Shown: positions 9,687 through 29,800 of the stretch, piece after piece | Layout: every line of letters begins with the position of its first letter | How positions within the stretch are numbered: position 1 is the stretch's first letter | Assembly: GCA_029210695.1 (NCBI GenBank) | Contig: JARGFH010000014.1 | Location: forward strand, 1-64,000 | Direction: 5' to 3' | Length of the DNA stretch: 64,000 bases | Origin: Acidimicrobiia bacterium | GTDB taxonomy: Bacteria > Actinomycetota > Acidimicrobiia > Spongiisociales > JAHEDJ01 | Translations under genes and position numbers: made by a program | Notes under the pieces: model-generated | What the model was told of the DNA's origin: nothing | Database searches by the model: none | What the model saw: the letters and a program-made list of their open reading frames with translations, nothing else

Positions 9687-9967
9687 CAGGTTTCGTTTTC
9701 TGTGGAGTTCCCCAGAATCGCGATTCGTCCTCGAGGAGTCGGTGCGCGGCCCTTGCATCTCCTCACAGAGCGTAACCGGCGGCCTACTCGATTGCTCGCC
9801 GAGGACCGACTCCACGTCAGTGGCCAACTCAAGGGGGTCCCGGAGCCTAACCACCTCGCCCCCGCTCGGTCTCTTCTCCACCTGTCGAGACCCGGCACGC
9901 GTCGTCGAAGAGGTCGGCGGCAGCCTCATCAGCCCGTCGACGAGGTAGTCGTTAGCGTCGAAAGCGA

Positions 9968-10330
9968 TCATGGTCTGAGCCTGGCCAGGCCCCGCAGAGG
10001 GGGGATCGGGTCGAGCCGGTTGGTTCGGGCGTAGTCGCGGAACCACTCCTGTCGTTGCTGGCACTGATACACGGTGTCCAACAGGTCGGGTGTGGACCGG
10101 CTGACTTGTTCGTCGGCGAAGGTCAGGAAGTCGGGGATGGGAACAGCCTCGCGAGGTGGCTCGGTGAGGAAGAAGAATCCGACAGGGGTGTGTGTGGCCT
10201 TGGCGTACTTCTCTAGCTGCTTGAGGGTCGATGCCACCTCCCCGCCTTCCCATGCCGCAAGGCGGGGAACCGTCCAGCCAGATCGTCGAAATCGGCTCCG
10301 GCGACCGCTGGCAGCGGTGCCAGGTTCCGA
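9968..10330 (-). pseudogene. Broken ImmA/IrrE-family gene remnant
   Basis: The frame at 9968-10270 carries a typical mid-section of HTH-ImmA/IrrE proteins (AAWEGGEVASTLKQLEKYA, then GFFFLTEPP, then PIPDF, then DLLDTVYQCQQRQEW). The preceding part (PAVAGADFDDLAGRFPAL) is in a different frame, so a single-base shift lies near 10265-10285. Translation also ends at 9968, before any HExxH zinc-protease motif. The gene is therefore shifted and 3'-truncated. It overlaps the 3' end of the ArdC-primase gene. It may be a relic of a regulator like the intact one at 48797. Confidence 0.65.
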
Positions 10331-10342
10331 GCGCGGCTGACG

Positions 10343-12737: not shown

Positions 12738-15700
12738 ATGCTGAGCATCGCCAAGGCCCACAAGGACTATTACCTCCAGAAACTGGGCGAGATCACACCC
12801 CGGGAGGACTACTACCTGCGAGGTGGAACCGCCACTGGTCGTTGGCACGGCAGCGGCGCCGTGGAGCAAGGACTGGAGGGCATCGTGTCGGCGGAGGGCC
12901 TGGTGCGGCTCTTCGACGGTCAGCACCCGGCGACGGGGGAGCAGCTCGGGCGTCAGCTTCGCAAGGACGGCGTGGCGGCCTGGGATCTGACGTTCTCGGC
13001 TGACAAGTCGGTGTCGCTGCTGTGGGCCTTCGGGGACGACCAGGTTCGACGCCACGTGGTCGAGGCGTTCGAGGAGTCCACCGCCGAGGCGCTCACCTAC
13101 TTGGAATCGGTTGCGTCGTCGACGCGGGGAGCATCGCGAACCCCGGTTCGCGACGTTGAGGGCCAGCCGATCCTCGGCGACAACGGAAGTCCTCGCTATC
13201 GGGTCGAGACATGGCCGATTCGAACCCACGGATACGTCTCGGCGTGGTTCACTGAGTTCACGAGCCGGGCGGATGATCCTCAGATGCACACCCACGTGGT
13301 TGTGGGGAACCGGGTGAAGGGTGTCGACGATACGTGGCGGGCGATTGATGGACGTCTCTTGTATCGGCACAAGCTGGCCGCTGGCTACCTCCACGAAGCC
13401 GAACTGCGCCACCGCCTCACCGAACGGCTCGGGGTCCGCTGGCAGCCGGTCCGTAGCGGTGTGGCGGACATCGAGGGCTTCACCCGGGAACAGATCATGA
13501 CCTTCTCGAAACGCCGCCAGGCAATCGAGGAGTGGCGTGACTCCCACGGCTACGCCGACACCGCAGCCGCCAACGAAATCGCCACGCTCGCGACACGAAG
13601 TCCCAAACAAGACCACCCCATCGACAGCCTGATGCCCGTGTGGCTGGAGCGGGGCGCCGAGATCGGACTCACCCCCGAGTCGGTGACAGCCGTGCTGGAG
13701 CGCAACCGGGAGGTCACGGTGCCCGACCCCGACACCATCCACGACCGGATGGCATCCGCCGACGGGCTCACCGCCCAGGCGTCGACCTTCGGACGAGGTG
13801 ACGCCATCAAAGCCGCAGCAGAAGCCCTCCCCGAAGGCGGACGACGAAGCGACGTCGAGGCCATCGCCGACTCATTCCTCCGTCGCTCGGACGTGGTCCC
13901 TATCCTCCCCATCCACCCCACTGACCCAGCGAGCGACCTGCCGATCGAGCTCGACACCGCCGAACTGGACCGGCTGCTTGAGCTGGTCAACTCGAGGAAA
14001 CCACCGACCATGCGGCGTAGCAACGGCGACATCTTCCCCGGGCTGGTCAACGAACGCCGCTACACAACCACTGAACTCCTCACCATCGAACAACGAGTCA
14101 TCGACCGCGCCCAGGAAGGTATCGCAGCCGACCGGTGGACTATCCCTGAGGCGAAGGTCGAGGCCGCCCTCGCGGCGCACACGGACCTCACCAACGGCCA
14201 ACGGGCGATGGTCCACCGGTTCACCGGGTCAGGAAACACCATCGACATCGGCGTGGGGGCAGCCGGGACCGGCAAAACGACTGTCATGGCCATCATCGGG
14301 GAACTCGCCACCGAGACCGGGACACCCGTGGTCGGAACGGCATTGGCGGCACGGGCCGCAGCCGGATTCGAAACCGCCACCGGCATCCCATCCGCCACCA
14401 TCACCCGCTTCCTGTGGGAAACCAAGGCAGCCGGTGGTCTCCCAACCCGCGCGATCGTCGTGGTCGACGAGGCAGGTATGGTCGGCAGCCGCCAGCTCGC
14501 TGCGGTCTCCGACCTGGTCGAAGCAGCCTCCGGGAAACTCATCCTGATCGGCGATCATCGCCAGCTCGCCGAGATCGACGCCGGCGGCCTGTTCGCCGCG
14601 CTGACGGCTCGCCTCCCCGCCATCGAGCTGACTGAGAACGTCCGCCAGGACCAGGAATGGGAACGCACCGCCCTGGCCGAACTCCGCCACGGCTCGATCT
14701 CGCGGGCGGTGGCCATGTATGACCGGCGCGGACTGATCAACGTCGCCGCTACCCCCGATGACACCATCGTCCAAGCCGTTGATGCCTGGTACAGCGACGT
14801 CCAAGACACCGGTGACCTTGCCCAGGTGCTGCTCATCGGACATCGCAACACCACCGTCGATCAGCTCAACCAGCGGGCTCGGGCTCTCATCGCCCAATCC
14901 GGCTTGCTCCACGGACCGGCGGTAAACGCAGGCGATCGCCTATTCCAGGCCGAAGACAGAGCTGTGTGCCTCAAGAACCGTTCGCGGCTGGGTGTGCTCA
15001 ACGGTGATCTCGCAACCGTAATGGCTGTGGACACTGAACGGCGCACGATTACGCTCAGACTCGACCGCACTAACAACACCGTCACCGTTCCCCATTGGTA
15101 CCTCGACGAAGGAAACCTCGACTGGGGCTACGCCCTCACCGGCCACAAGGCTCAAGGCGCAACCGCCCGGCGCGCGCACACGGTCGCCGGAGACGGCGTT
15201 GACCGGGAATGGCTCTACGTCACGATGAGCCGAGGCCGGGAGGCGAACACGATCTACCTCACCGATCCGGACGTCAAAGAGAGCGAATGCACGCACCTAA
15301 CCCACCAACACCCCGAACGGTTGCCTGCCCTCATTACCGCCCTTGGTCGCACCGCAGCGGAGCCGGCGGCTTCTGACTCCGGGCGAGGACCTCGCACGAT
15401 CACCGATGCACAGCTGCAGGCCCGTTTGGCGGACCTCGAGAGCCAGCTCGAATTCGGAGAGGCAAGAAGACCCGTCGACGGTCGGGACGACCTTCTTGCT
15501 GAATACATCGCCCTCCGCCAGGAGACACGCGCCCGACATCGAGACCGGCTCGACGCCATCGCATACGAGCCACCCGGATGGATAGTCGATGTCATCGGCG
15601 AGCGGCCCACCGAACCCGATCGACGAGCTGCGTGGGATCGGATCGTCGATCGAGCGGTTCACGTCCGAATCGAACTTGAAGTTCCCAACGATGCCAGCCA

Positions 15701-15836
15701 TCTTCTGGGACCCGAGCCTCCCAGTCGGGACGTCGCCCGTCGCACAACATGGATGGTCGCCCGCCGGAATATGGACGAGGATCTTCGAGCACTGAACGGT
15801 CCAAGCGATCGAAGCCTTGGTGCAGTCGCTCGCTGA
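12738..15836 (+). CDS. traA: MobF conjugative relaxase-helicase (TrwC/TraA-like)
   Basis: A 1032-residue protein. The N-terminal 300 residues are a MobF relaxase with tyrosine pairs Y11/Y12 and Y25/Y26, the motif FSADKSVSLLW (85-96) and the metal site DPQMHTH (H184, H186). The first metal-site histidine, expected 11 residues before H184, is instead E173. Residues 490-850 are a RecD-type helicase with Walker A GAAGTGKT (507-514), Walker B VVVDEAGM, GDHRQL, and late motifs LTGHKAQG and VTMSRG. The C-terminal 170 residues are charged and less conserved. It nicks oriT, stays bound to the 5' end and pilots and unwinds the strand. The 3' end is intact just before an IS insertion at 15853. Confidence 0.93.
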   Translation: MLSIAKAHKDYYLQKLGEITPREDYYLRGGTATGRWHGSGAVEQGLEGIVSAEGLVRLFDGQHPATGEQLGRQLRKDGVAAWDLTFSADKSVSLLWAFGDDQVRRHVVEAFEESTAEALTYLESVASSTRGASRTPVRDVEGQPILGDNGSPRYRVETWPIRTHGYVSAWFTEFTSRADDPQMHTHVVVGNRVKGVDDTWRAIDGRLLYRHKLAAGYLHEAELRHRLTERLGVRWQPVRSGVADIEGFTREQIMTFSKRRQAIEEWRDSHGYADTAAANEIATLATRSPKQDHPIDSLMPVWLERGAEIGLTPESVTAVLERNREVTVPDPDTIHDRMASADGLTAQASTFGRGDAIKAAAEALPEGGRRSDVEAIADSFLRRSDVVPILPIHPTDPASDLPIELDTAELDRLLELVNSRKPPTMRRSNGDIFPGLVNERRYTTTELLTIEQRVIDRAQEGIAADRWTIPEAKVEAALAAHTDLTNGQRAMVHRFTGSGNTIDIGVGAAGTGKTTVMAIIGELATETGTPVVGTALAARAAAGFETATGIPSATITRFLWETKAAGGLPTRAIVVVDEAGMVGSRQLAAVSDLVEAASGKLILIGDHRQLAEIDAGGLFAALTARLPAIELTENVRQDQEWERTALAELRHGSISRAVAMYDRRGLINVAATPDDTIVQAVDAWYSDVQDTGDLAQVLLIGHRNTTVDQLNQRARALIAQSGLLHGPAVNAGDRLFQAEDRAVCLKNRSRLGVLNGDLATVMAVDTERRTITLRLDRTNNTVTVPHWYLDEGNLDWGYALTGHKAQGATARRAHTVAGDGVDREWLYVTMSRGREANTIYLTDPDVKESECTHLTHQHPERLPALITALGRTAAEPAASDSGRGPRTITDAQLQARLADLESQLEFGEARRPVDGRDDLLAEYIALRQETRARHRDRLDAIAYEPPGWIVDVIGERPTEPDRRAAWDRIVDRAVHVRIELEVPNDASHLLGPEPPSRDVARRTTWMVARRNMDEDLRALNGPSDRSLGAVAR

Positions 15837-15852: not shown

Positions 15853-17444
15853 CTAGCTACTTCCCCCTGAAAAACTCGGGTGGTGGTCCTCGCGTTTTGG
15901 GGGCGGGGTGACGATGATGGCTCCAACCCGTAGGGCTAGTACGGATTGGAGCCATCATGTTGCGGACGGTAGGTGATCAGGCGACGTTGTGGGAGTCGGT
16001 GTTGCCCGAGGGGGTGGTGCCGATGTCGGCGGAGTTGGCTCGGGTGGACGAGTTGTTGGACGATCCCCGCTTTTTCGAGCCGTTCAAGAGGCACTTTGAC
16101 TCGTCGTGGGGGCGGCCGTCGATTCCGATGGAGACTTACCTGAGGCTCATGTTCTTGAAGAACCGGTACCGGCTCGGCTTCGAGACGTTGTGCCGGGAGA
16201 CGGCTGATTCGATCAGCTGGCAGCGGTTCGCTCGGATCGGGGTGGGAGGCCGGGTGCCGCATCCGACCACGCTGCTGAAGATCACGACCCGCTGCGGGTC
16301 AGCGACAGTGGACCAGCTCAATGAGGTGTTGATCACCAAGGCAGTGGAGGCCCGGTTGGTGAAGACGAGCCGGGTCCGGGCGGACACCACGGTGGTCGAG
16401 GCCGACGTCAAGTATCCGACCGATTCGGGGTTGCTGACTAGAGCGGTCGGCAAGGCATCCCGCCTGATCGGACGGATCCAAGCAGCCGGGGCGGCGAGGC
16501 GGACCTCGGTCACCGATCACGTCACCGAGGTGCAGCGTCATGCCCATTCGATAGGGGTGTGGCTGCGTCGCCGCAGTGGCGAAGCCAAAGACGAAGTGTT
16601 GGCCATCACCGGCCAGATCGCGGACCTCACGACCGAAGCGATGGCTGATGCTGCCAGGATCGTGACCAACGCTCGAGCCCATCTGCGACGCCACCCAGAC
16701 ACTCCCGAAGCCGGAAGGGTCGCAGCTACGATCGACGATCTCGAAACGCTGATCGAACGGGCCGGCCGTGTCATCGACCAGACCCGACAGCGCCTCGCCG
16801 GTGACACCCCGCCAGGGTCAAACAGGCTGGTGTCGCTCCATGACCCCGATGCCCGCCCGATCCGCAAAGGGCGGCTCGGCAAACCCGTCGAATTCGGATT
16901 CAAAGCCCAGATCGTCGACAACGAAGACGGCATCATCTTGGATCACACCGTCGAGATCGGAAACCCATCTGACGCGCCGCAGCTCATCCCCGCCATCGAA
17001 CGAGTGAAACGGCGCTGCGGGCGGCCTCCCGATCAGGTCACTGCCGATCGGGGCTACGGCAAAGCCTCGGTCGACAAAGCCCTCATCGACGATGTCGGGG
17101 TCAGCTACGTCGCCATCCCCAGACCCGGCACACCAACCCAGAAACGTAAGACCGAAATCGACACCGACGAGTTCCGAGAACTCGTCCGATGGCGCACCGG
17201 AGCCGAGGGCCGCATCGCCTGCCTGAAACGACAACACGGCTGGTCCCGTAGCCACCTCACCGGCATCGAAGGCGCCCGAACCTGGTGCGGACACGGTGTC
17301 CTAGCCCACAACCTCACCAAAATCGCCCGCCTCAACCCCTAACCAGCCCGCCCATCGACCGACCACCGAACAAGCCGCTACCGCCTCAGAGATCCTCGCA
17401 ACCACCATCACCCCGGACCCACTTCTTCAGGGGCAAGTAGCTAG
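15853..17444 (+). mobile_element. ISNCY-type insertion sequence flanked by CTAG
   Basis: Terminal inverted repeats CTACTTCCCCCTGAA (from 15857) and the complement of TTCAGGGGCAAGTAG (to 17440) bracket a single transposase gene. CTAG is present just outside both ends (15853-15856 and 17441-17444), consistent with a 4-bp target duplication. The element sits 17 bp after the relaxase stop, and its right CTAG forms the TAG stop of the neighbouring GIY-YIG gene. Confidence 0.85.
15957..17342 (+). CDS. ISNCY-family transposase
   Basis: A 461-residue transposase of the type annotated ISNCY, with a DUF772-like N-terminal region (GRPSIPMETYLRLMFLK, YRLGFETLCRE) and a DDE domain with RADTTVVEADV, TADRGYGK and, near the end, GAEGRIACLKR supplying the D-D-E residues. 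A long alpha-helical insertion occupies the middle (about 180-290). Full length, no frameshift. ATG at 15957. Confidence 0.88.
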   Translation: MLRTVGDQATLWESVLPEGVVPMSAELARVDELLDDPRFFEPFKRHFDSSWGRPSIPMETYLRLMFLKNRYRLGFETLCRETADSISWQRFARIGVGGRVPHPTTLLKITTRCGSATVDQLNEVLITKAVEARLVKTSRVRADTTVVEADVKYPTDSGLLTRAVGKASRLIGRIQAAGAARRTSVTDHVTEVQRHAHSIGVWLRRRSGEAKDEVLAITGQIADLTTEAMADAARIVTNARAHLRRHPDTPEAGRVAATIDDLETLIERAGRVIDQTRQRLAGDTPPGSNRLVSLHDPDARPIRKGRLGKPVEFGFKAQIVDNEDGIILDHTVEIGNPSDAPQLIPAIERVKRRCGRPPDQVTADRGYGKASVDKALIDDVGVSYVAIPRPGTPTQKRKTEIDTDEFRELVRWRTGAEGRIACLKRQHGWSRSHLTGIEGARTWCGHGVLAHNLTKIARLNP

Positions 17445-18025
17445 TCGCTCGAAGTGATCCGCCTGCGAAGGCTCGTCAACAGGCGACGGGGGGGTGTGTT
17501 CGGACGGCCCTCGAGATTCACGGGTGGGTCGAGCATGTCGAGCACCGCTGCCTCGATGCGCCCCAGCGAATCGCGGTCGTCATAGGCAACGATCGCTACT
17601 TCGAGGTGCTTCTTGATCCAGTCGGAAACGACCCTGTTGTCGTCTGGTGCGAGCCGACCGGGCCTAAGCACCGTCAGACTTAGTGGGTCCAGCAGCAACC
17701 CTGAGAGCGTCAGTCGGAAAGTCGATGACGATGCGTTCCCGTTGATGTGGTTGCCGCGGATTCGGCTGGCCAAGGTTGCGGTTGATATTTTCCCGGAGGG
17801 CCAGCGTGTGGCGCCGGCTTGACCCGCGTATACGAGTGACGGGATAGTGGTCCCGAGTTGAGTGCCGATCATCGACCGGGCTTCCTCATCCCCCCACCAC
17901 GAGTAGAGACCTGGGTGCGAGGCAAGCTGGCGATCGCATGGGAAACCGGAGGGCGACTCCGATCGGCGACTGTCCGTGAGGACCTTGGCCAGGTGTTCGG
18001 CGATACGTACATCACGGCTTGTCAC
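17441..18025 (-). CDS. GIY-YIG-like nuclease, last gene of defence operon
   Basis: Starts with GTG at 18025, overlapping the TGA of the upstream gene (GTGA), giving 194 residues. It carries HPGLYSWWGD and SLVYAGQAGAT, the GIY...YIG pair, then RIRGNH, a STFR arginine, a glutamate in DSLGRIEAAVLD and DPPVNL near the end, matching the order of GIY-YIG catalytic residues. The TAG stop is formed by the CTAG that flanks the ISNCY element, so the coding end is preserved. Tight coupling to the YaaA-like gene suggests the two act together, for example recognition plus strand cutting (inference). Confidence 0.75.
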   Translation of the reverse strand: MTSRDVRIAEHLAKVLTDSRRSESPSGFPCDRQLASHPGLYSWWGDEEARSMIGTQLGTTIPSLVYAGQAGATRWPSGKISTATLASRIRGNHINGNASSSTFRLTLSGLLLDPLSLTVLRPGRLAPDDNRVVSDWIKKHLEVAIVAYDDRDSLGRIEAAVLDMLDPPVNLEGRPNTPPRRLLTSLRRRITSSD

Positions 18026-18957
18026 TGGCGTGTGATCTCCATCTGCAGGCCATCCGAACTTGTCCGGCTCTCGGGCAGGCGCCCCCTCTCGGCAATGGCT
18101 GTCATCCATTCCCCCTGGGCGCGCGGCGCTTTCACCATCGCACCCGGTGCTGACCGCGGACTGGCGAGAATCACATCCTCGACGTGCTTCGGCCATCGGG
18201 TTCGTCGGAACACAGTGGAGTAGCCGGTAGTGGCCGACAGCACCCCAATGACCTGTATCACTTTGTTCGCTTCAGCGAAGCCGGCAAGGCAACGTTCGAT
18301 CAGCCGGTTCGGCCACATCGCTGGACGGAACACTTGCTCGTACATCCCGATTGGCTCGTCTGGGAGCACCAGTCCGTACCCACCGGAGATGATGACAATG
18401 CGCGCCGCTTGATCTGCCAGTTCTCGCAGTGCAGACCGCCCAGCTTTGTAGAAGGTCCCTTCGTATCGCTGAGCAGCAGGGAGGAGCGTCGACTCGTCGA
18501 CACCCGCAGAAGCTGCGTTGTGGCGCCTTCGATCTGACAACTCTCTGTGGAGGTCCCGTGGTAGCGCGTCAAGAATCGAGGTTTGCGTGGGTGGTGCGTC
18601 GCCCCTCCTCTTCGATCCAGAACACGGCACCACGATCAAACAGCCGGCAAGTCGGAGCGTTGGGACCGGAGGCTTAGGACGAAGCCGTGAAGCTTCTAGT
18701 CTCGATCGGGTCGGAGTCTGCAAGGAGCGCTGCGCTGGTGGTGGGATCGAAGGCGCTTCGATCGTCTCCGCTTCGGGCAGGTTGAGTATTCTTCCCTTGG
18801 GTCCCGTGACTCGCTTGGTAACTCCAGCGGAGGCCAGCGACCGGCAGATTTGGTTGACCTGCTGATGAGGTTCGATGCCGGTTCGCTTCCGGATTTCGCC
18901 ATCCGTGAGCCCCGGAACGGACTGGATCAGTTTCAGGATTCGCTCTCGATTGGTCAC
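18022..18957 (-). CDS. HTH plus YaaA/DUF6884-like protein
   Basis: I choose GTG at 18957 (311 residues), preceded by an AGAGAG purine stretch; the longer frame would overlap the upstream gene. Residues 1-60 form a winged-helix-like region (ILKLIQSVPGLTDGEIRKRTG). Residues 110-311 match YaaA/DUF6884-type proteins: CLIVVPCSGSKRRG, LLPAAQRYEGTFY, IVIISGGYGLVLPDEPIG and a terminal GEWMTAIAERG. YaaA proteins bind damaged or modified DNA. In this setting it may read modified bases and pass the site to the GIY-YIG partner with which it overlaps; that is inference. Confidence 0.65.
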   Translation of the reverse strand: MTNRERILKLIQSVPGLTDGEIRKRTGIEPHQQVNQICRSLASAGVTKRVTGPKGRILNLPEAETIEAPSIPPPAQRSLQTPTRSRLEASRLRPKPPVPTLRLAGCLIVVPCSGSKRRGDAPPTQTSILDALPRDLHRELSDRRRHNAASAGVDESTLLPAAQRYEGTFYKAGRSALRELADQAARIVIISGGYGLVLPDEPIGMYEQVFRPAMWPNRLIERCLAGFAEANKVIQVIGVLSATTGYSTVFRRTRWPKHVEDVILASPRSAPGAMVKAPRAQGEWMTAIAERGRLPESRTSSDGLQMEITRQ

Positions 18958-19042: not shown

Positions 19043-20773
19043 TCAAGACGGCCATCGCCGGCCCTTGCAGAGTTCGGCGGTTGCCTTGGCGATGAGTTCG
19101 GCTCGGGCATCAATGAACGCTCCGTAATCGGCCCGAATGTGATCCGCCCGTTCAGTCTCATCGGCGAAGCTCGAATAGCCACCGACATTCAACTGATCGT
19201 ATGGGATGACGTGAGTGGCGAGCCGATTGGCAAGGTCTTGTTCGCTCAGGTCTCCTCGGTCGATGCGATCACGCAAATAGCGAACGGGCTCCTTCGCTGA
19301 TATGTCTCGATTGGTCTTCCACGTGATCAGGGCGCAGTTCAGGGCGCGGAAGCTCTCCGCTTCCGAGACCTGGCCTTGGTTGACCAGTAGCGAGTTAGGA
19401 AACAGGTGGTGATACTCGCGTCGCGGGAGCTGCTCTCTGGTGGCAGGCGTGTCGTCAGCAATGTCTCGCCCGCCAGCGCGAAGTGACACGGCCAGGATGC
19501 CGCGGGCGAGGATCTCTTTCGTGCTCGGCCAGCCGGCTCGCTTGAAGACCTCTACCGTCGGGAGCGGGAAGAGGTCCTCGTTGAATATCGGTGCCTCCGG
19601 GGCGTCCTCCCCACGCAAGCGTGCGCGCAACCCGCGAAGGTCCTGCAGCTGACGCGTCGCCGCCTGGTTCTCGTATCGACTTGTGAGGAACGACCTCCAG
19701 ACGTAGCTGCGGAGAAGCGATCGTGCTTTGCCGTGCTCGTCGGAATCCTCGGGCACGTGCGGGTGGAGGGCAGAGAGGATTGGTAGCACTGCGGTGGTTG
19801 GGAGACGCCTGCCGTCGTATACCGATTCGTCCTCGAGGAAGGAGATGGCCCATCTAATGCCTGCTGCGATGTTCGACCACTCGTTGACAACCCGATCGAG
19901 ATCCAACTTGAAGTAGCTGGCCTGAGTGGGCGCACGATCATCACGTAGCGCGGCGGTGTCCAGCACGAGGTCTTCGGCGTCGATGTAGGCGCCCACCATC
20001 GGAACGGCGGCGTGGACTTCGCCGATGAGATCGTGCAGGGACTGACCTGTAGCGGCTTCAAGTTGGGCGACGATGATGTCGTAGGCGGTCAATCTGACGG
20101 ATGTCGTATTGAGCTTGACGAAGACGTTCAGTGCGACGTCCCTGGGGGTCTCCGAGGGGAGAGCAAGAAACGGGATGTTGTAAGCGGCTATGGATTCGCG
20201 GAGCGCGTTGATTTGCCGCTCCAGGGCGCGGCTGGCGACAACATCATCGGTGGTCGCTGAGTCGCACCAGCGGCCTATCTCTTGGTGGATATCGCCGGGC
20301 CGAAGCAGACGCAGTGGAATGAAGCCCCGGCCCCAGACCTGAACTGGATCGTCCGCCCATACGGGGTACCGCTTGCCGTTGCGCGACCAGCGGGCCTGTG
20401 AATGCATCCGGGGGACACGGACGCCGCCGTGCTCCTCATCCGGCTCGAGGGAGAGCAGGTATGTGCGGTTTTCATAGTCGTCGTGGAATGACCGCCAGAG
20501 GGCAGTGAGGCGCTGCTGACCGTCTAGCAGGTGCTCGGTGGGTCGTTCGACCGGATCGGGGGAGCCGATCATCTGTCTGCTTATGAATGGTTCCTCGCTG
20601 CCTAGCTCAAGGACGAGCGTTGAGCCTGCGGGTAGACCGTTCAACACGGCCTCGATGAGGTTCGAGATCTCATTGTGGCCCCACGCTTCGAAGCGCTGGA
20701 ACCGTGGCAATCGGATCTGTCCTGTCCGGATCCGATTGAACCATTCTGGCAAGTTCCGATTCCTGGCTTCCAC
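19043..20773 (-). CDS. DUF262/DUF1524 GmrSD-like type IV restriction protein
   Basis: A 576-residue protein, GTG start at 20773. The N-terminal DUF262 part has IRLPRFQR and HLLDGQQRLTALW (DGQQRL at 84-89), the ParB-like NTP-binding core of GmrS. The C-terminal part has YHHLFPNSLLVN with a later NCALITWKTNRDIS, the HNH-type DUF1524 nuclease of GmrD. Single-chain fusions of this kind act as modification-dependent (type IV) nucleases against glucosylated or otherwise modified phage DNA. It lies 58 bp downstream of the DUF499 gene and 86 bp upstream of the HTH-YaaA gene, all on one strand. Confidence 0.85.
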   Translation of the reverse strand: MEARNRNLPEWFNRIRTGQIRLPRFQRFEAWGHNEISNLIEAVLNGLPAGSTLVLELGSEEPFISRQMIGSPDPVERPTEHLLDGQQRLTALWRSFHDDYENRTYLLSLEPDEEHGGVRVPRMHSQARWSRNGKRYPVWADDPVQVWGRGFIPLRLLRPGDIHQEIGRWCDSATTDDVVASRALERQINALRESIAAYNIPFLALPSETPRDVALNVFVKLNTTSVRLTAYDIIVAQLEAATGQSLHDLIGEVHAAVPMVGAYIDAEDLVLDTAALRDDRAPTQASYFKLDLDRVVNEWSNIAAGIRWAISFLEDESVYDGRRLPTTAVLPILSALHPHVPEDSDEHGKARSLLRSYVWRSFLTSRYENQAATRQLQDLRGLRARLRGEDAPEAPIFNEDLFPLPTVEVFKRAGWPSTKEILARGILAVSLRAGGRDIADDTPATREQLPRREYHHLFPNSLLVNQGQVSEAESFRALNCALITWKTNRDISAKEPVRYLRDRIDRGDLSEQDLANRLATHVIPYDQLNVGGYSSFADETERADHIRADYGAFIDARAELIAKATAELCKGRRWPS

Positions 20774-20831: not shown

Positions 20832-23800
20832 TCATTCCTCGAACTCGTGGGACTCGAATCCCAGTTGGGTCGCGTTCTCGCTGACCGTTCGACGGGTGCG
20901 ATCATCAAATCCGTCGGATTCGGCATTGATCTCGACGGTGATGGACACCTTGCTGCCCTCTGCGTTGCCGAGGTGGGAGGCGACCTCGTTGATGAGATCT
21001 CCGAAGTCTCGGATTGCCCGAACTGGGTCCAGGTGCTTGCGACCGTAGAAACGGGTCGGCACGACGAGCCCCGGGGGCTTGGGCTGATCCCCACCGTCGT
21101 CCTCGTTGCCGCCCACCGCTCCGGGTTCATCGACGGTCTGCTCGTCAAGCTGACGCCGAGCCCGATCGGGCTTGACGACGACAGCGGTCTGGCTCATCCC
21201 CACTCCGACGTGCTCGCCGGTTTTGAGTCCTCGATAGCGGTCGGTTGACTCGTCGTGCGCATCTGCGAAAGCGAATGTGTCTTGCTCCCAGTTGATCTGG
21301 GCTGCTCCATCTGAGACGGCAGCGGCGAAAACTCCGAAGTTGGCGAGCCTCGGCATGTACAGGTACTGGGAGTAGTAGCCCCATAAGCGGCGGACTCCGA
21401 TGTGGTCGCCGTCCCACAGGCTTGCCTCGGGCCGATCGAGATCCATCCGTATCCGAATCCCGCCGTAGGAGGAGATCAACTCCTCAGATGATTCCAGCTT
21501 CTTGGCCGTCTTGGCAGCTAGGTCGCCATTTCCTGCCGCCCGGATCGCTTGCCACGAGATCTCCGCCTTGCCGGGCTGCTGCTTAGGTGTGAGGACATGT
21601 TGGAACGTCTCACCGATCCGCTGCCGGATGGTGTCGTCGGCCTCCTGCAGCTTGGTTTCGGCCTGCTTGATCTCCGACCCAGACAAATCGAGTCCGTCGG
21701 CGCCTCTCTCGTCGAGAATCGACTTCCACGCCATCCAGTCCCATACCGCCGATCTCAGTTCGGGAACTCGGTTGGGGTCGGCGGCGAGGAAGGCGAGGAG
21801 GTTGCGGTTGATCCGTGGCCCGCCCTGCCTTTGCTCGAGGATCGCGGCGGCTGCTTTCACGGCGGGTGACTCGTCGGTGGCGCCTCGGTGGGGAGAAGTC
21901 GCGGGCAGGATCACCAGCCTGACACCGTCGTCCTCGTCGGGGACGTCCCCCGGGCCATCGGGAAAGACGTGCACCGCTGCGAACGGACCAGTGGACCGGG
22001 CGGCCTGCACCCGGTTGCGGATCTCGATGTCGGCGTCATCGTCGGTGAAATTCGATTCGGCCCGATCGCCCGCCAAACGAGTGAGGGTGGGTTTGGTGTC
22101 GTACCAGTACTGGGCGCCCTGGCTGTATAGGTATGTGGCCTCCGACGACAAGTGACGGAGAGCGTCCTGTATCACTCCCGGTTTCTCTCCCGGCTGGACA
22201 CAACCCAACACGATGTGCTTCAGATCGACCCCTCGACGATCCTCCTGGCGTGGAGCCGACCCGACATAGGTAGCACGGGCCACCCGTCGAGTCGCCGAAT
22301 ATTTCCCGAGATTCGGCCGAGCCTGGTCAATGCGGAGGGGCAGCGAGTTAGGTCCGTCGACATCGGTACGGATGATCGGCTCCCACCGGTCATCGAGATA
22401 CTTGGTGAGCTCGGAGACGACCGCACCCGAATCCATCGGGATGGTCCCTGGCATGATCATCAACGACGAGTCGCCCCGTTTCCACAGCTCCGAGATGACG
22501 GTCGCCATCAATCGCAGCATCCCGCGGGTACGTTGGAATCGCTCCAGGGTCGACCAGTCTTGATAGAGTCGGTCGAACAGCTCAGGATGGATCGGGTAGG
22601 CCGCCGCCATCCGCCGTTGATACTCGCCCTCCTTCGACTCGGATGGAAAGTCGGCGGGGCTATCCAAATACAGGTTGTGGTAGGCGCGGATCACCGCGTC
22701 GCGTTTCTTTGCCTCGGACGCCGGGACTGGTTCGAACAGCCGGCGACGCACGATCTCAAACGACTCATCAGTCGACGCCGGTCGCCACTGGGCTGCTTTA
22801 CGGGAAACAACGTTCTTGAGCTTGGCGAGGGCAAGCTGACCTTTCTCGCCACCAACCTCCAGATCCGAGGAGGGTATCGACACCAGCACCAGGGTGTTGT
22901 CCACTGCTGAAGCGGCCTCGGTGAGCGCCTGGGCAAACGTGAACTGCGTGTCGAAGTCGCCGCCCGGAAGTCTCATCTCGTCGGTCTTGGTGGGAAGGTC
23001 GCGGGCGTAGGCGACCCATTCGTCGATGAGCACCAGTGCGGGCCCGAACCTCTCGAAGAGCTCGATCAGTTTGGCGCCAGGGTTGGTCGCGTTCTGGTCG
23101 TCCTCGGCAAGGATCTTGTAGCCCTCGACGCCGCCGAGCTGCCACGCGAGATCACCCCACAGGGTGTGAACCTTGGTCCCGTCTGGCTTCTCCTGCGGTG
23201 TTGACGGTGACACCATCTGCCCGACGAACACCGCCCGCCGTACCTCACTTGGGATCGACAGGTCGTCATCCGCAAGGACGTCGTCGACCCCGGACAACAC
23301 AGATGTCGGTACGCCGGCGACGAGGTGAAAGAGGGCGATGAGGCTGTGCGTCTTCCCGCCGCCGAAGCTGGTCTGCAGCTCGACGATCGGGTCGCCGCCC
23401 CTGCCCGAGAGCCGCGAGGCAGCGATCCTGATCAGGTCGCGGAGCCCATCGGTGATGTAGGTGCGGGCGAAGAAGGCCGTCGGATCCTGATACTCCTCGT
23501 CAGCCTTGCTGTGAAGCACTTGGTAGAGATCAGCAGCGAACTCGGCCTGTTCGAAACGGCCCTGCGCGACATCTGGATGGGGAGCGACGATCTCGCGCCA
23601 CGGCGCCAAACCCGCGGCTGGCTCGCCTTTGGTTGCTTCTGCGGCCAGCTTGCGTTGCTCGCCTCGTGCCTCTTCGGAGAACACCTGTCGCTGCAGACCC
23701 TTGCGAAGATCCTGCACTTGCTCGACGTGTTCACTTGCGTGGAAGGCCTTCAGGAGGATCTCGCAGAAGTCGAGAATGCGGTAGGTCTCGTCAGAGCTGA

Positions 23801-24095
23801 ACTTCTTGTTGTGCGCCCAGTCGTTCCGTGCGTCCCTCAGCAGGATGACGTAGCTGCGTTCAGATTTGGAAAACACTTGTTTGAAGAACTGATTCCAAGT
23901 GGCTTCCATCCCCTTCAGCAAGAAGGCGAGATCATCGGGATCGGGATTCCGGTCCGGCTGGTACAACGCGTCGTTTACCGACTGAGTCCACCCGTTGCCG
24001 TACATTGATTGCCAGGCCTTCTCCAGCCCAGGCCGGATCCCATCCCGGAGGAGGGTAAGGGCCTTTCCAACACGTTCGTGATTCGACATCGCCAT
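20832..24095 (-). CDS. DUF499 ATPase with N-terminal Swt1-type HEPN domain
   Basis: A 1087-residue protein. Residues 5-140 are a HEPN region of the Swt1 type with DARNDWAH (R90 to H95). Residues 180-700 are the DUF499 (COG1483) AAA+-like ATPase: TSFGGGKTHSLIAL (Walker A at 245-250), ALVLIDEW (Walker B) and a later TRGMLRLMATVI region. The C-terminal 200 residues are mixed. In defence islands DUF499 proteins travel with DUF1156 methylases and large helicases, as here. It begins 8 bp after the methylase stop. Likely role: energy-dependent effector or sensor of the system, with HEPN as a possible RNase. Confidence 0.85.
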   Translation of the reverse strand: MAMSNHERVGKALTLLRDGIRPGLEKAWQSMYGNGWTQSVNDALYQPDRNPDPDDLAFLLKGMEATWNQFFKQVFSKSERSYVILLRDARNDWAHNKKFSSDETYRILDFCEILLKAFHASEHVEQVQDLRKGLQRQVFSEEARGEQRKLAAEATKGEPAAGLAPWREIVAPHPDVAQGRFEQAEFAADLYQVLHSKADEEYQDPTAFFARTYITDGLRDLIRIAASRLSGRGGDPIVELQTSFGGGKTHSLIALFHLVAGVPTSVLSGVDDVLADDDLSIPSEVRRAVFVGQMVSPSTPQEKPDGTKVHTLWGDLAWQLGGVEGYKILAEDDQNATNPGAKLIELFERFGPALVLIDEWVAYARDLPTKTDEMRLPGGDFDTQFTFAQALTEAASAVDNTLVLVSIPSSDLEVGGEKGQLALAKLKNVVSRKAAQWRPASTDESFEIVRRRLFEPVPASEAKKRDAVIRAYHNLYLDSPADFPSESKEGEYQRRMAAAYPIHPELFDRLYQDWSTLERFQRTRGMLRLMATVISELWKRGDSSLMIMPGTIPMDSGAVVSELTKYLDDRWEPIIRTDVDGPNSLPLRIDQARPNLGKYSATRRVARATYVGSAPRQEDRRGVDLKHIVLGCVQPGEKPGVIQDALRHLSSEATYLYSQGAQYWYDTKPTLTRLAGDRAESNFTDDDADIEIRNRVQAARSTGPFAAVHVFPDGPGDVPDEDDGVRLVILPATSPHRGATDESPAVKAAAAILEQRQGGPRINRNLLAFLAADPNRVPELRSAVWDWMAWKSILDERGADGLDLSGSEIKQAETKLQEADDTIRQRIGETFQHVLTPKQQPGKAEISWQAIRAAGNGDLAAKTAKKLESSEELISSYGGIRIRMDLDRPEASLWDGDHIGVRRLWGYYSQYLYMPRLANFGVFAAAVSDGAAQINWEQDTFAFADAHDESTDRYRGLKTGEHVGVGMSQTAVVVKPDRARRQLDEQTVDEPGAVGGNEDDGGDQPKPPGLVVPTRFYGRKHLDPVRAIRDFGDLINEVASHLGNAEGSKVSITVEINAESDGFDDRTRRTVSENATQLGFESHEFEE

Positions 24096-24103
24096 AACTC
24101 AGA

Positions 24104-26869
24104 TCATTCTCCCAATCTCTGCTGCACTGGGGTTTCAGATCGGCTGGCGAGTTTGACCAAATCGGGCCACGCCTGAACGAGGGTGTTATAGGCCACAGCC
24201 TCCTCGGCCCATCCACGCCGATCGGCTGCTTGATAGAGAAGGTAGGCAAGCTGCCTGGCACGCTCGCCGATCCCTGTACCGATCCAGCGCAGGAGATTTG
24301 CTGCGACCAGCTCCGACTCGTCGAGGGATGCGATGAGGTTTTGCGTGACCTCCCAAACGGTTAGACGAGTGTCGGCAGAAGGGTCCCAGTCTGCGACGAG
24401 ATCATCCCGATCGACCAGGTACACCTTGCCGTCCTGCTGGACTGCGATACCGGCTTGAACTACGCCGCCTACCGATGTGTTCTTCGCTTTCGACAGCGTC
24501 TCTGCATCCCCGAAGAGTCCTGGTTTCATTCCGTTCTGCTCATACCACGTCAAGGCCCATCGCGTATCAGCGTCGAACTCGGTCTCCTCCTCGGAGAGCA
24601 CCTCCTGAAGCACTTCGTTTATGAGCGTCAGAGCGTGGCGAACGGGCATATCGGTACCATCGGATTCGATGACTTTCGAAAATCGAGAGAAGACGGCCAT
24701 TCCGGGTCCGATTGCCGATTGAGCCATGTCCACGGGTGCGATGGACTCTCGTTGGAGAAGTCGGATCGCCGGCGGCAGTTCCCGGCGGAGAGCGGCCAAG
24801 AATTCGCCGCGAGTCGCCAGCGGGGCCATCGGGTGTTGGGGGCGACAGGCTATGACAATCGAGGATGCGAGTGCTGCCTTCTTCATCGCTAGCGGACGAT
24901 TGACCAGTTCCGTCCTCACGGGCCATGTCGACGTAATGGCGAGGCCCGCAGACCTCAAGCCTTGCAAGAAGGTCTCCCAGCCCGTCGACGCGGTTCCGCT
25001 TGCGTCCGTCTCGGCCTGCTTAAACGCGTAGAACACGACGGATGGGAAGTCGGGATTCTGGTGCGCGGCGACGGACGAGAACACCTCCTTCATCCCGGCC
25101 TCGAAGTGTGCCCTTGCCTCTGGATTGGAGCCATGGCGGTAGGGGTCTGCGATGAGTTCTTCGGCCTTGGGAGTGAGCACAGTGGATAGCTCGTCGGGCC
25201 AGACGTCGCGAAGGCTCGTTCTCAGCCATACGTAGAAGAAGTCGGAGAGATCGGAGTACCCAATGTTGTCGTAGTAAGGAGGATCAGTGACTACAACTGG
25301 GTTCGCAATCTCCGCGACCCTCGCCGTCGCATCTCGTTGGGCCACCGACGCGGCCCCGACCGCCGGCAGATGTTCGATCGCCTTCGCAACCCAATCCAGC
25401 ATCGACCGCCAACTCCCAGTTGATCCCGAGAAAGGGTTCACCTCGGCGAAATCCCACGTCATAGGAATCGCTTGGCGAGCGAACGTGTTCCTGATCAGCT
25501 CCTTTGAATTGTGCCAGGTACATACCGTGGACCAATAGTCGGCACACTTGTCCAGAACGAAAGCAAGGTACGTCATCACGGCGTCCGCGTATGCCGTCCC
25601 TTGGTCACCGCCATCACGGAGTCGGCGGCCATCGATTGTCAAGCCAGCCGCTTGAGCGTCTCGTTCGATGACCATCCGAACTTCTTGAAGCTGGTCCGAG
25701 AATGTCGTAAGTGCGAGGAGTTGGCGGTCTGTGAACAGGTCCTTCCAATGGCCGAGCCCGTACCCCGGCGTCTTGAAATCGCGCGGGTTCCGGGGAAGCT
25801 CTGCTTCGAGGGCTGATGGAATGTGCACGGCGGGTAATGCGGGCGTCTCAATGCCGGCGACATACTCGCGACCGCGGGGACCCTGCGCTACGGCCGCCAT
25901 CGCATGGCGACCGAAGCCCGTCGTTCGGCCTTGCTGACGTACGTAATCGAATCCGAATGGCGTTCCCGTTGCTACGCAGCGCCCGGCTGTGCTCCGGCCA
26001 ATGGTTCCTTCCGGTGGTTCCCCTCCCTCGCGTATCGCGTATCGGATCTCCTGGCGGTGTCTGTCAATGATCGGCTCGATCCATATGGAGGGCTTTGACT
26101 TAGTCGCTGAACGAAGCGTCCAAGAGCGAACAAGGGGTACATCTCCGCTCCATGCTGGATCTGGAGATGCCACCGTTCGCGCCCAGATCCACGCAATCGC
26201 GGTGGCGTCCTCGCTTCCCTTGCTGGCTGGCAACCGCACCTTGGGATAGAGGCTTCCGATCCGCTCGAATGCTTGTTCTTGAATCCGAAGCCCGTAGTAG
26301 CGGACGTCTTCTGCCAATCCTTGGGCTCCGCGCCAGCTCTTCAGACCCGACCCCTGCCGGGCTTCGGGGTTCATCGGTGGCTTCCGGTCGAACCGAGGAG
26401 GGATCTCGATCATCGCCTTCGAGACCAACACGGCAACAGGGTTCAGATCGCCGCCGAACGCGGGCAGCCCAAGTCGCTGCGCCTCTAGCGGTATCGATCC
26501 GCCTCCACAGAAAGGGTCAAGAACAGTGGGTAACTCGCCGTCGCACGAGTCCAGTATCTCCTTCGTTGCCTCGTCGAGTATGTGCTGATTGTCCGAGTTC
26601 TCCCAACGCACGAGTTGCTCAAGGATCCGGAAGAGCCGTTGTCGCTCCGTCTCCTGCGCCTCAAGGGTCGGGAATAGCTCAACGTCTGCCGAAGGGTCGT
26701 TGACCAAGGACGCCCACAGAACAGCTCGCGCTGCAGCGAGCGGACGACGCGCCCACCAGAGGTGCAGAGTTGAGGGATGGCCGTGCCGGATGGATTTCTC
26801 CCTTGCAGCCTCCCGATTGATGGCGTCGAGCGGCAGCGCCACCTCGATCAACTTCTTCTTGTACGTCAT
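24104..26869 (-). CDS. DUF1156 adenine-specific DNA methyltransferase
   Basis: A 921-residue protein of the COG1743 type. The N-terminus has LIEVALPLDAINREAAREKS and GHPSTLHLWWARRPL, diagnostic of DUF1156. LDPFCGGGSIPLEA (from 117) is the SAM-binding motif and VTDPPYYDNIGYSDLSDF (about 530-547) is the catalytic DPPY motif of N6-adenine or N4-cytosine methylases. The ATG start overlaps the TGA of the helicase gene (ATGA at 26866-26869), so translation is coupled. It probably marks host DNA so that the rest of the system spares it. Confidence 0.9.
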   Translation of the reverse strand: MTYKKKLIEVALPLDAINREAAREKSIRHGHPSTLHLWWARRPLAAARAVLWASLVNDPSADVELFPTLEAQETERQRLFRILEQLVRWENSDNQHILDEATKEILDSCDGELPTVLDPFCGGGSIPLEAQRLGLPAFGGDLNPVAVLVSKAMIEIPPRFDRKPPMNPEARQGSGLKSWRGAQGLAEDVRYYGLRIQEQAFERIGSLYPKVRLPASKGSEDATAIAWIWARTVASPDPAWSGDVPLVRSWTLRSATKSKPSIWIEPIIDRHRQEIRYAIREGGEPPEGTIGRSTAGRCVATGTPFGFDYVRQQGRTTGFGRHAMAAVAQGPRGREYVAGIETPALPAVHIPSALEAELPRNPRDFKTPGYGLGHWKDLFTDRQLLALTTFSDQLQEVRMVIERDAQAAGLTIDGRRLRDGGDQGTAYADAVMTYLAFVLDKCADYWSTVCTWHNSKELIRNTFARQAIPMTWDFAEVNPFSGSTGSWRSMLDWVAKAIEHLPAVGAASVAQRDATARVAEIANPVVVTDPPYYDNIGYSDLSDFFYVWLRTSLRDVWPDELSTVLTPKAEELIADPYRHGSNPEARAHFEAGMKEVFSSVAAHQNPDFPSVVFYAFKQAETDASGTASTGWETFLQGLRSAGLAITSTWPVRTELVNRPLAMKKAALASSIVIACRPQHPMAPLATRGEFLAALRRELPPAIRLLQRESIAPVDMAQSAIGPGMAVFSRFSKVIESDGTDMPVRHALTLINEVLQEVLSEEETEFDADTRWALTWYEQNGMKPGLFGDAETLSKAKNTSVGGVVQAGIAVQQDGKVYLVDRDDLVADWDPSADTRLTVWEVTQNLIASLDESELVAANLLRWIGTGIGERARQLAYLLYQAADRRGWAEEAVAYNTLVQAWPDLVKLASRSETPVQQRLGE

Positions 26870-29800
26870 CTCGGCTCCACGGCTTCTGAGAGCAGCTTGG
26901 GTAGTGAGAGATTGACCGACACCGCTGCGAATGGAAGCTCTGTGCCCTGAAATGGTCGCAACAGGTATCGCACTGTCGGATCCGCAGCTCGATCTTCTGG
27001 GACGGAGACAAGAGCGAGGATGAACCGGTCGGGGGTGTTTTGTGCTTGCCGAACCTGGCGGGCTTTCACTGTGACGGTGTCGGATCCTTCGATACGACCT
27101 TTGACCTCGATGAAGTAGAGGTCGCCGCTCTCGAGGTCGCGGCTTTCGATGTCGTAGCCTGGTTGGTGGTGGGGCATCTCCTGCGGTTCCCTTTGGAGAG
27201 CCCGCTCTGCTGAAAGCACGGCTGAGACTGCCCTTCGGTCGACCTCCTCGACATCCTTCGCGTAGGTGTGCGGGGGCTGGGTGCGTTCGCCGGCGAGCCG
27301 GTCGAGAAGACCTTGGGGGATAACGATGGCCCCGCCGACGACCGTCGGAGGTTGGTTGGAGAGATCGAGTTCTTGGTCGAGTTGGCGGTTTCTGCGTTCT
27401 AGACGCGCCTGCAGGTCGTCGGCGATGTTGCGAGCATGCCCGGACGTGAAGCCTCCCTTTGGCTTCTTACCTTGGAGTTCTTTGGCCTTGGCGTCGGCGG
27501 CTCGTGCGTCCCAATAGTTGATCTCGCTGGTGAGCCGGTCTACGACAGCGGCTCGTACCCGGGCGACGCGGTCTTCTGTAATGCGACGGACTTCCTGGAT
27601 GTGGGGTCCGGCGAGGTTCTCGATGGCGTGGCTTCGGGCGGTCGTTGACAGCGCGGCTGTGATCCACTCACCTCTGAGAGTGTCGGACAGGATTGGGCGT
27701 TCTTCGTCTGCTGGCCGGTAGTCGAGGTAGGGGGCATAGCCGGCATCGCTCGGGTCGCTACTTTCAGGGATCTCGACGAACTGGTAGCGGCGAGACACTG
27801 TCCGCCTACCGCCATCTTCTCCGGGCCGTCCGTCTTTCACGGCATGTTCGAGGTAGACGAGTGCCCGGGGGGTTTCGGTCGGATCGTCGGGGTCGATGAA
27901 CACCGTTCCGCGTTGGAGCAGTGCGCCATGCCGGTCTCCAATGGTGTCGATGACTGCCGTAAGGAGTGGGTGGCCGGGGCTGAGCAGTTCCGCCGGTGGC
28001 TTGCCGTCGACCTTGATGAGTTCCTTCTCGAAGGTGACGCGCTCGTAGACCGGCTGCAACGGGGATCCGACCTTCGCTTCCCGCTCGGTGGATCGGACTG
28101 CCGAAGGGACGCGGGTGATTTCAAACCGTCCACCTTCCCGTTCGGTGATACGACCGCCCAGGAGTCGGAAGGCGTCGAGGAAGAACGCTCGGATAAACCC
28201 GGGTTGGAGCTTGCGGGCCTTTGCCCGTTCCATCATGTCTCGGATCTCATCGACGCGGGCCTTGCCGAGGATGTCGACTGCCAGTGCGCGCTCAGCAACG
28301 ACATCTTCTAGTCGCTTGCCGATGCCCTCGTCGATGATCCGCATTTGTCGAGCCCGAACTTCGGGATCATCGCCGTAGCGGATCGCCTCGATAAGGAGTT
28401 CACGCAGCGAGCGGTCGATGAATGAGTCACCCAGGACGTCGTAGACCTGGTCGCCCAGCGCTTTGCGCTGTTCTTCGATCTTGTCGAGGAGCCGCTCGAA
28501 TACGGCACCTTCTCTGGTGTTGTGGGCGACCATGTTCCATAGGTGGCACACTTCTTGCTGTCCGATGCGGTGGATGCGACCGAAGCGTTGCTCGATGCGG
28601 TTTGGGTTCCACGGCAAGTCGTAGTTGACCATCAGGTTGGCCCGCTGCAGGTTAACGCCTTCACCGGCTGCATCCGTGGCTACGAGCACCTGGATGTCTG
28701 GGTTGGTGATGAAAGCATCCTGGGTGCGGCGTCGGTCTGCCCGTCGAAGGCCCCCGTGGATTACACAGATGACTTCTGGTTTGCCAAGGAGGCTCCGGAT
28801 GCGACGCTCTAAGTAGTGGAGAGTGTCGCGGTGCTCGGTGAAGATGATGATCTTGCGTTTTGTGCCGTCGGGTGCGTTCATAGCGTCGGATTGGAGAATC
28901 GAGGACAGCTCCTCCCACTTCTTGTCGGTACCTGATGCTCGGACTGCGGCAGTGAGCTTCTCCAGTTTTGCCAGCTTGTCGATCTCGTCCCGGAGCTCGG
29001 GGACGGTCGCGGCTGCTGTGGCCTGGTCGATGGCCTCGTCTTCCAGTTGCTCGAGTTCGACGTCGTCGTAATCGTCAAAATCGAAGTCCTCGAGGTCAGT
29101 CTCTGAAAGGCCTTTCGGAATGGTGGCACTATCGCGAGCTGTTCCATCGAGGATCGCTTCCAGCTCGATGAGCCGCTTCTGGAGGCGCTCCTTGCGGCGC
29201 TGCACCGAGCGGTAGATCGCCTCCGGCGAGGAAGCGAGTCGCCGCTGAAGGGCGGTAAGAGCAAAGCCGACGACAAGGCCACGTCGTCGGTCGCCGCCCT
29301 CTTCGATCGCCTTGGCCTTGTCCATCTCCTCGCGGACGTAATGGGTGACTGCCTTGTAGAGGCTGTCCTCCAGCGGCGACAGGTCGTACTTGACGGTCCG
29401 GGCGATCCGTTCCGGGAACAATGGTCTGCCGTCGAAGGTGAGGAGGTTCTCCTTGACGTAGCGGCGCATCAGGTCGGATGCGTCGGGTGCACGCCCGTCG
29501 CGCAATCGGCCCGCAAAGCGGTCGGGGTCGAGAAGGGCGAGGAACTGTTGGAAGTCCTCTTCCTTGCCGTTGTGTGGCGTGGCGGTCAACAGCAGGAGGT
29601 TGCGGGTGATTCCCCGGAGTTGTTCGCCTACCTGGTAACGCTTGGTCTTCTCCAGCTTGGAACCGAAGTAGCGGGCGGCCATCTTGTGGGCCTCGTCCAC
29701 TACGACCAGATCCCACTCGGAGGCACGGAGCTTGACCTGGAGGTCTTCGTTGCGTGCGATCTGATCGACTCGGGCGATCAGGAAGTTCCTTTCGATGAAA

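Follow-up and report, generated by a model that had tools for sequence, protein, structure and literature searches.

A winged-helix YaaA/DUF6884-type protein coupled to a GIY-YIG nuclease in an Hma operon: a candidate modification- or lesion-directed nuclease

The window (the whole stretch of DNA analysed, 64,000 nucleotides) contained, on one strand, a gene for a protein combining a winged helix with a YaaA/DUF6884-type core (WH-YaaA), followed by a gene for a GIY-YIG nuclease (Table 1). A purine-rich GAAGAGAGG was located directly upstream of the GTG start codon of WH-YaaA, and the two genes shared the GTGA overlap that had been predicted for them. Further upstream were genes for a DUF262/GmrSD_N protein and for HmaC, HmaB, and HmaA, all three of which gave near-full-length matches to the PADLOC Hma models, the match to HmaC beginning after the N-terminal Swt1 HEPN domain. 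Because all of these genes lie on one strand with short gaps, the pair appears to form the end of a six-gene HmaABC-DUF262 operon. The Hma system is defined by HmaABC, and the WH-YaaA and GIY-YIG pair is not included in that definition. The original prediction was of a two-protein restriction module: the unit and its intact nuclease residues (see below) were retained, but the pair is not isolated, being the apparent tail of this larger operon.

The block lies between a TrwC-type relaxase and a T4SS coupling protein, with a transposase on either side, and was therefore assigned to a conjugative element. Between them, the two transposase genes enclose all of the Hma-DUF262-YaaA-GIY genes; they were 25% identical over the aligned part, and an inverted repeat, at least 11 bp long, was found at the right one only. 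The same element encodes a UDG-superfamily protein (positions 9126-10379; E 9e-9), and a uracil-DNA glycosylase is annotated on the Rhodococcus plasmid pLW3, which carries a fused form of the pair.

Table 1. Positions of the pair and of the surrounding genes in the window (L038 is a locus carrying relatives of the pair).
Feature	Position	Strand	Details
TrwC-type relaxase/helicase of conjugative element	12738..15836	+	domain scan
DDE transposase between pair and relaxase	15957..17342	+	DUF772, DDE_Tnp_1
GIY-YIG nuclease, 194 aa, GIY_YIG_2	17441..18025	-	G39-L-Y41, Y66, G68, R88, H93, E158, N170 intact
Stop/start overlap GTGA coupling WH-YaaA and GIY-YIG genes	18022..18025	-	gap -4
WH-YaaA protein, proposed base reader	18022..18957	-	311 aa, GTG start at 18957, TGA stop at 18022
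YaaA/DUF6884/DpdC-type core, residues 104-274	18136..18648	-	C112-x3-K116, Y165, S191, G195, Y206, W215, Y246
N-terminal winged helix, residues 1-60	18778..18957	-	AF2 helices; L038 MarR_2 match
DUF262/GmrSD_N protein	19043..20773	-	85 nt upstream of YaaA gene
HmaC, Swt1-like HEPN and DUF499 ATPase	20832..24095	-	PADLOC HmaC 977 bits; Pfam; gap 58
HmaB, DUF1156 DNA adenine methylase	24104..26869	-	PADLOC HmaB 1051 bits; gap 8
HmaA, SNF2/DEAD helicase with NOV_C domain	26866..30384	-	PADLOC HmaA 1471 bits; gap -4
Second transposase gene	30666-32465		right side of block
T4SS coupling protein, TraG/VirD4-like	33205..34896	-	domain scan

In a Pfam profile scan, the winged helix of the window protein matched HTH_24 at E=0.09, below the cut-off. 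MarR_2 was above its Pfam cut-off (30.6 vs 27 bits) in the full-length relative at L038 (L-numbers denote loci carrying relatives of WH-YaaA, GIY-YIG, or DUF6884 proteins), and the AF2 model of the window protein had a fitting helix pattern (H3-13/H19-26/H34-43). Nine residues of the recognition-helix segment, PHQQVNQIC, were invariant in all three full-length members, and a search for the winged-helix pattern in 217 phylum genomes found the window's own copy alone, a result that does not bear on how widely the helix is used. The core did not reach the cut-offs of the DUF6884 (PF21818; 17.6 vs 30 bits) and YaaA/DUF328 (PF03883; 16.6 vs 29.6 bits) profiles, while fused relatives scored 140-148 bits against DUF6884; the best family match of the window core was DpdC (PADLOC; E=6.7e-4). 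Of the DUF6884 motifs CxxxK and LSAxxG, the window core has C, K, S, and G (C112-x3-K116 and S191-x3-G195), L and A of the latter being replaced (ISGGYG). In a core alignment of nine rows, including the DpdC-like protein of L049 (adjoining a DpdB-like gene, as recognised by eye), E. coli YaaA, and four fused DUF6884 domains, A161, S191, Y206, W215, and Y246 were kept in every row, and C112 and K116 in all rows except E. coli YaaA (8/9). By hhalign, the window core matched the fused DUF6884 domains with E=1.1e-5 (probability 82) and the DpdC-like protein of L049 with E=1.8e-4 (probability 48). Two further hhalign comparisons were not counted as evidence: A3 against E. coli YaaA by itself (E 0.026, probability 1.9) and A8 against DpdC (E 0.0096, probability 4.3). 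Judged by these profile matches, the nearest described enzymatic relative of the window YaaA is DpdC, which acts in 7-deazaguanine DNA modification, and not E. coli YaaA.

The AF2 model of WH-YaaA was mediocre (pLDDT 64.3). Its best structural match was E. coli YaaA (5caj; Z 7.6, rmsd 4.0, 140 aligned), followed by AF0587 (2q07; Z 6.8, rmsd 3.7, 106 aligned), which we take to be a member of an archaeosine-synthase-like group, the next row having a Z of 6.0; since a Z under 8 can mean a common arrangement by the tool's own yardstick, the YaaA match of this model is suggestive by itself. A natural fusion from Asanoa was modelled more clearly (pLDDT 86.5): its middle domain matched the same two structures (5caj, Z 9.7, rmsd 4.1, 140 aligned; AF0587, Z 9.1, rmsd 3.2, 115 aligned; best other row in the region, 6.0), and its C-terminal domain matched R.Eco29kI (3nic; Z 6.6, rmsd 7.2, 141 aligned). 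The pTM was 0.48 in both models, and therefore they do not fix the relative placement of the domains. A Foldseek search against the PDB gave no match at E<=0.001 for either model. Sequence searches of solved structures gave no convincing match with the split-pair profiles, and placed E. coli YaaA at the top, at E=0.18, with the fusion profile. Both domains of the original prediction were thus recovered: the YaaA/DUF6884-type core was sub-threshold by the Pfam profiles, but was supported by DpdC and the two best structural matches, and the winged helix, weak by sequence in the window protein itself, by the relative at L038 and the AF2 helix pattern.

The nuclease was above the curated cut-off of GIY_YIG_2 (PF20815; 55.3 vs 22.4 bits). 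Loss of its catalytic residues, looked for by alignment, was not observed: GxY, YxG, R, H, E, and N were intact in 25/25 rows, representing 24 distinct proteins because the fusion alignment (A6, 20 rows) and the split-set alignment (A4, five rows) both include the window protein. Nine motif positions were invariant in all 20 rows of the former, and the motif positions of the latter were invariant in 5/5 rows except for the middle position of GxY. This conservation points to a predicted active GIY-YIG nuclease.

The same two-gene pair was found in three other genomes, one of which carries a truncated YaaA. WH-YaaA and GIY-YIG genes overlap by TTGA at L038 and abut at L037, where the start codon of the GIY-YIG gene is uncertain; the identity to the window proteins was 38% at both loci for WH-YaaA, and 45% and 48% for GIY-YIG. 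At L002/L039, a GIY-YIG gene (62% identity) lies behind the C-terminal end of YaaA alone, with an ATGA overlap kept. Relatives were rare: counting the own genome, WH-YaaA was present in 4/395 class genomes, and GIY-YIG in 2/138 order genomes and 3/396 phylum genomes. No plasmid match was obtained by tblastn with WH-YaaA, and all three plasmid matches of the window GIY-YIG were single-polypeptide DUF6884-GIY-YIG proteins of Rhodococcus. Scanning genome contigs with GIY-YIG profile A1, which is biased towards fusions because two of its three rows are fused, yielded 24 loci, all actinobacterial by title. A YaaA core occupied the same open frame as GIY-YIG at 22 of these (from the ORFs read; L026 and L032 are disrupted) and an abutting frame at L018, making 23/24 fused or abutting; no YaaA core was seen in the ORFs of L021. 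The DUF6884-GIY-YIG part was retained in the fusions L019, L010, L022, and L012 despite a swapped N-terminal domain (DUF7662, DUF7669, an unnamed domain, or none). The unnamed domain is common to L022, L023, L027, L028, and L030; a ScoMcrA-type head, suspected at the N-terminus of L022-like fusions, was rejected on the basis of no PDB match and a sub-threshold SCO5918 match only. One fusion (L031:5346-7226) contains two GIY-YIG copies, the second with GIN for GIY by eye.

When the DUF6884 domain alone was used as the query, 85 plasmid records were obtained, and 19 from outside Rhodococcus were examined. A GIY-YIG gene was directly downstream of DUF6884 in three (haloarchaeal and Deinococcus), and an HNH gene in one; DpdB preceded DUF6884 in one, and 15/19 had neither GIY-YIG nor HNH directly downstream. 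On the Natrialbaceae plasmid, DUF6884 overlaps the GIY-YIG gene, after which come DUF1837 and a DEAD helicase, presumably a Hachiman-like system. In the archaeon Halalkalicoccus, the order DUF262/GmrSD, DUF6884, GIY-YIG is that of the window, and the GIY-YIG protein seems to contain two copies. The Deinococcus match was weaker (E=0.014; annotated as GIY-YIG in the record). A less biased scan with GIY_YIG_2 gave eight matches in 6/296 genomes; of the three that were inspected, two had a YaaA partner by eye, the window and G309 (with degenerate motifs), and G193 has a different N-terminal domain. The pairing was therefore ascribed to this subfamily and not to GIY_YIG_2 as a whole. A further GIY_YIG_2 match in the own genome (contig C70:5142-5453) has two in-frame stops and is perhaps a decayed copy. 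Viral scans with the GIY-YIG, WH-YaaA, and A3 queries found no relative; the one find of the viral scan with A1 was a stand-alone GIY-YIG of this subfamily on a phage-like contig (L036:7902-8702), which has no YaaA and lies directly behind a protein-kinase-like gene (by eye). Co-occurrence elsewhere, a check proposed with the original prediction, was hence found in three forms: the same two genes, fusions, and neighbouring DUF6884 and GIY-YIG genes. Because the pair and the fusions recur, chance adjacency is very unlikely, and the gene overlap together with the natural fusions supports the view that the two proteins form a unit.

The neighbours scanned were chosen ones at part of the 24 loci, compared with no background rate and with PADLOC models that include generic helicases and nucleases; within these bounds, relatives lay beside BREX (L020, L029, and L037, the last with PglZ and BrxD), DISARM DrmD and DrmMI (L024), Hma genes (L025 and plasmid L004), type I R-M (L016 and plasmid L005), a type IV REase model match (L012 and L031; the same gene in L013 by blastp), NERD-UvrD (L022 and L026), DUF262 HEC-05 (L027; DUF262 also in the window and Halalkalicoccus), PDC-S44 (L010), and PDC-S37 (L023). 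The tested neighbours of L014, L017, and L019 gave no PADLOC match at E<=1e-6, and no HmaABC homologue was found within the sequence available around the split relatives L037 and L038. A TrwC-like relaxase was present in 6/24 loci (L017, L020, L024, L025, L027, and L029). We read the pair as a portable module riding near a conjugative relaxase, beside whichever large defence system is loaded.

Papers are cited here by PMC accession. In DUF6884 proteins, CxxxK and LSAxxG are reported to be conserved, possibly as motifs of an active site, alongside a positively charged cleft like that of YaaA, and an AlphaFold3 model has a DUF6884 protein flipping a nucleotide (PMC11701544). A role in binding DNA and inspecting its bases is credible for the YaaA/DUF6884 family. 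DpdC, which hydrolyses dPreQ0 in DNA, is labelled DUF328 in PMC12839542 and DUF6884 in PMC11888242. Among relatives of the core, a YaaA/DUF6884 gene overlaps DpdA in Halorubrum tailed virus 29 (L062:3013-4138); a 472-aa protein of a Trichormus plasmid carries DUF6884 at its C-terminus (L060:2014-3432) behind an unassigned N-terminal half, for which a DpdA-like TGT domain was rejected because Pfam gave DUF6884 only; and a DUF6884 neighbour on a Halomicrobium plasmid (L059:3616-4458) has a sub-threshold match to AGOG N-glycosylase/DNA lyase (E 7e-4). The own genome encodes a second, bona fide DUF6884 protein (contig C95, L076:3920-5761, plus strand; DUF7662-DUF6884, 146 bits), with HNH_2 as the gene after next. 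From its C-terminal part, a reader-glycosylase version is possible, although the HhH-GPD glycosylase-like assignment was not adopted, at E=0.11 only and with no PDB support. The host genome has one TGT-family gene and a QueC-type match of only 60 residues, which is not convincing, so that nothing in the host points to 7-deazaguanine DNA; neither DpdA nor DpdB was found among the operon genes scanned (Pfam and PADLOC).

With a probability of roughly one half, we interpret the pair as a type IV-like nuclease, encoded by two genes and directed at modifications or lesions, that would serve as an auxiliary arm of the Hma operon and probably attacks foreign DNA with unusual bases. The winged helix would dock on duplex DNA, and the YaaA/DUF6884 core would capture an extruded non-canonical base in a pocket of C-x3-K, S-x3-G, Y, and W, a step proposed from structure and from publications on the family; the GIY-YIG partner, kept beside the core as in the natural fusions, would then cleave. 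HmaABC would deal with ordinary unmodified DNA, leaving hypermodified phage or plasmid DNA that escapes methylation-based restriction to the pair and the DUF262 protein. Since DpdA or DpdB is found next to relatives of the core, C7-substituted 7-deazaguanine is proposed as the most likely class of base, but this leading candidate is a guess. The conserved Cys and Lys could also signify catalysis instead of reading.

Alternatively, the pair may serve DNA repair in a miniature UvrC-like step, with YaaA/DUF6884 finding damaged or ribonucleotide-containing DNA and GIY-YIG incising it, for the benefit of the element during single-strand transfer. YfjM, a member of DUF6884, is reported to bind lesions of the abasic and RNA-base kinds (PMC11701544), and YaaA is part of the oxidative stress response (PMC4834066). 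The HhH-GPD-like part of the C95 protein (E=0.11 only) and the UDG-superfamily gene of the window also fit with repair. However, repair proteins are usually core, and the patchy distribution (4/395 and 3/396 genomes, as above) therefore counts against this role, as do the mobile or defence genes often found beside relatives where neighbours were examined; we regard it as rather unlikely.

It is less probable still that the pair is the sequence-specific nuclease arm of Hma, cutting unmodified DNA while adenine methylation by HmaB protects the host. Its position on the same strand as HmaABC with short gaps is consistent with such a role, and so is the fact that the nuclease domain matched R.Eco29kI best by fold. 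R.Eco29kI is a type II, sequence-specific enzyme that, unlike the pair, has no YaaA partner. Relatives lie beside BREX, DISARM, or type I R-M, and therefore no single cognate methylase seems to accompany them where neighbours were scanned, and two of the split pairs have no HmaABC homologue in the available sequence. The described Hma/DUF499-centred, BREX-related Type-1 system shares the HmaABC genes and the HEPN-fused ATPase with the window, in which the DUF262, YaaA, and GIY-YIG genes are extras; GIY-YIG and YaaA have no mention in the accessible main text of that paper (PMC12839542).

The plan of a sensor joined to a GIY-YIG cutter has precedent, because CMoRE and the wH-GIY-YIG enzymes are known. 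CMoRE is an anti-phage type IV system with a GIY-YIG nuclease and a modification-sensing domain, but is one protein with a C-terminal sensor reading 5hmC/5ghmC, whereas the pair is split over two genes, WH-YaaA being the N-terminal partner; the accessible text does not name YaaA (PMC12923530). Ahi29725I and Apa233I resemble the pair in having a winged helix and GIY-YIG, and differ in being single proteins reading 6mA, as G6mATC; the accessible text makes no mention of YaaA or DUF6884 (PMC11037411). By analogy, the winged helix of the pair might itself be the sensor of a 6mA-dependent type IV enzyme, the YaaA fold being a scaffold. The invariant recognition-helix segment agrees with this, but the fusions conserve DUF6884 and not the N-terminal domain, and HmaB of the same operon, which by its family would make 6mA, would endanger self; this reading is improbable.

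The window core shares the CxxxK and SxxxG residues with DUF6884/YaaA proteins (PF21818, PF03883), and probably also their fold and DNA binding. E. coli YaaA differs in being a stand-alone stress protein without the aligned C and K and without a nuclease partner. DpdC, the nearest described relative of the core by profile, differs from the pair in modifying dPreQ0 to dADG and in sitting with DpdA/DpdB. We know of no DpdC with a winged helix or a GIY-YIG domain. A 7-deazaguanine R-M system, in which the YaaA protein would be a DpdC-like base modifier and the nuclease a distinct restriction subunit, could be supposed from the DpdC match with its common C-x3-K, PA..Y.G, and S.GYG and from the hydrolysis of dPreQ0 (PMC12839542), but is highly improbable in an operon without DpdA/DpdB and a genome with only the TGT-family gene and short QueC-type match described above.

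We therefore return to the two-gene, base-directed nuclease as the preferred interpretation. Modification-dependent GIY-YIG nucleases are already known, and YaaA/DUF6884 as their reader appears new: no published report of this combination was found in the literature covered, subscription journals being mostly outside it. Cytosine and adenine modifications have known readers, while no reader of 7-deazaguanine DNA was met in the same literature. A wider and doubtful proposal is that the DpdC/YaaA enzyme fold for 7-deazaguanine processing has been turned into a reader in a widespread family of defence nucleases, with 7-deazaguanine-protected phage genomes as the trigger and GIY-YIG, HNH, or glycosylase effectors swapped onto DUF6884. 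If so, the very 7-deazaguanine bases that shield phage genomes would themselves trigger attack. If the reader-nuclease unit is true, it would provide a testable function for YaaA/DUF6884, a family whose molecular role is not settled, would be a candidate reagent for detecting modified bases, and would represent a conserved unit that conjugative elements carry among Hma, BREX, and DISARM.
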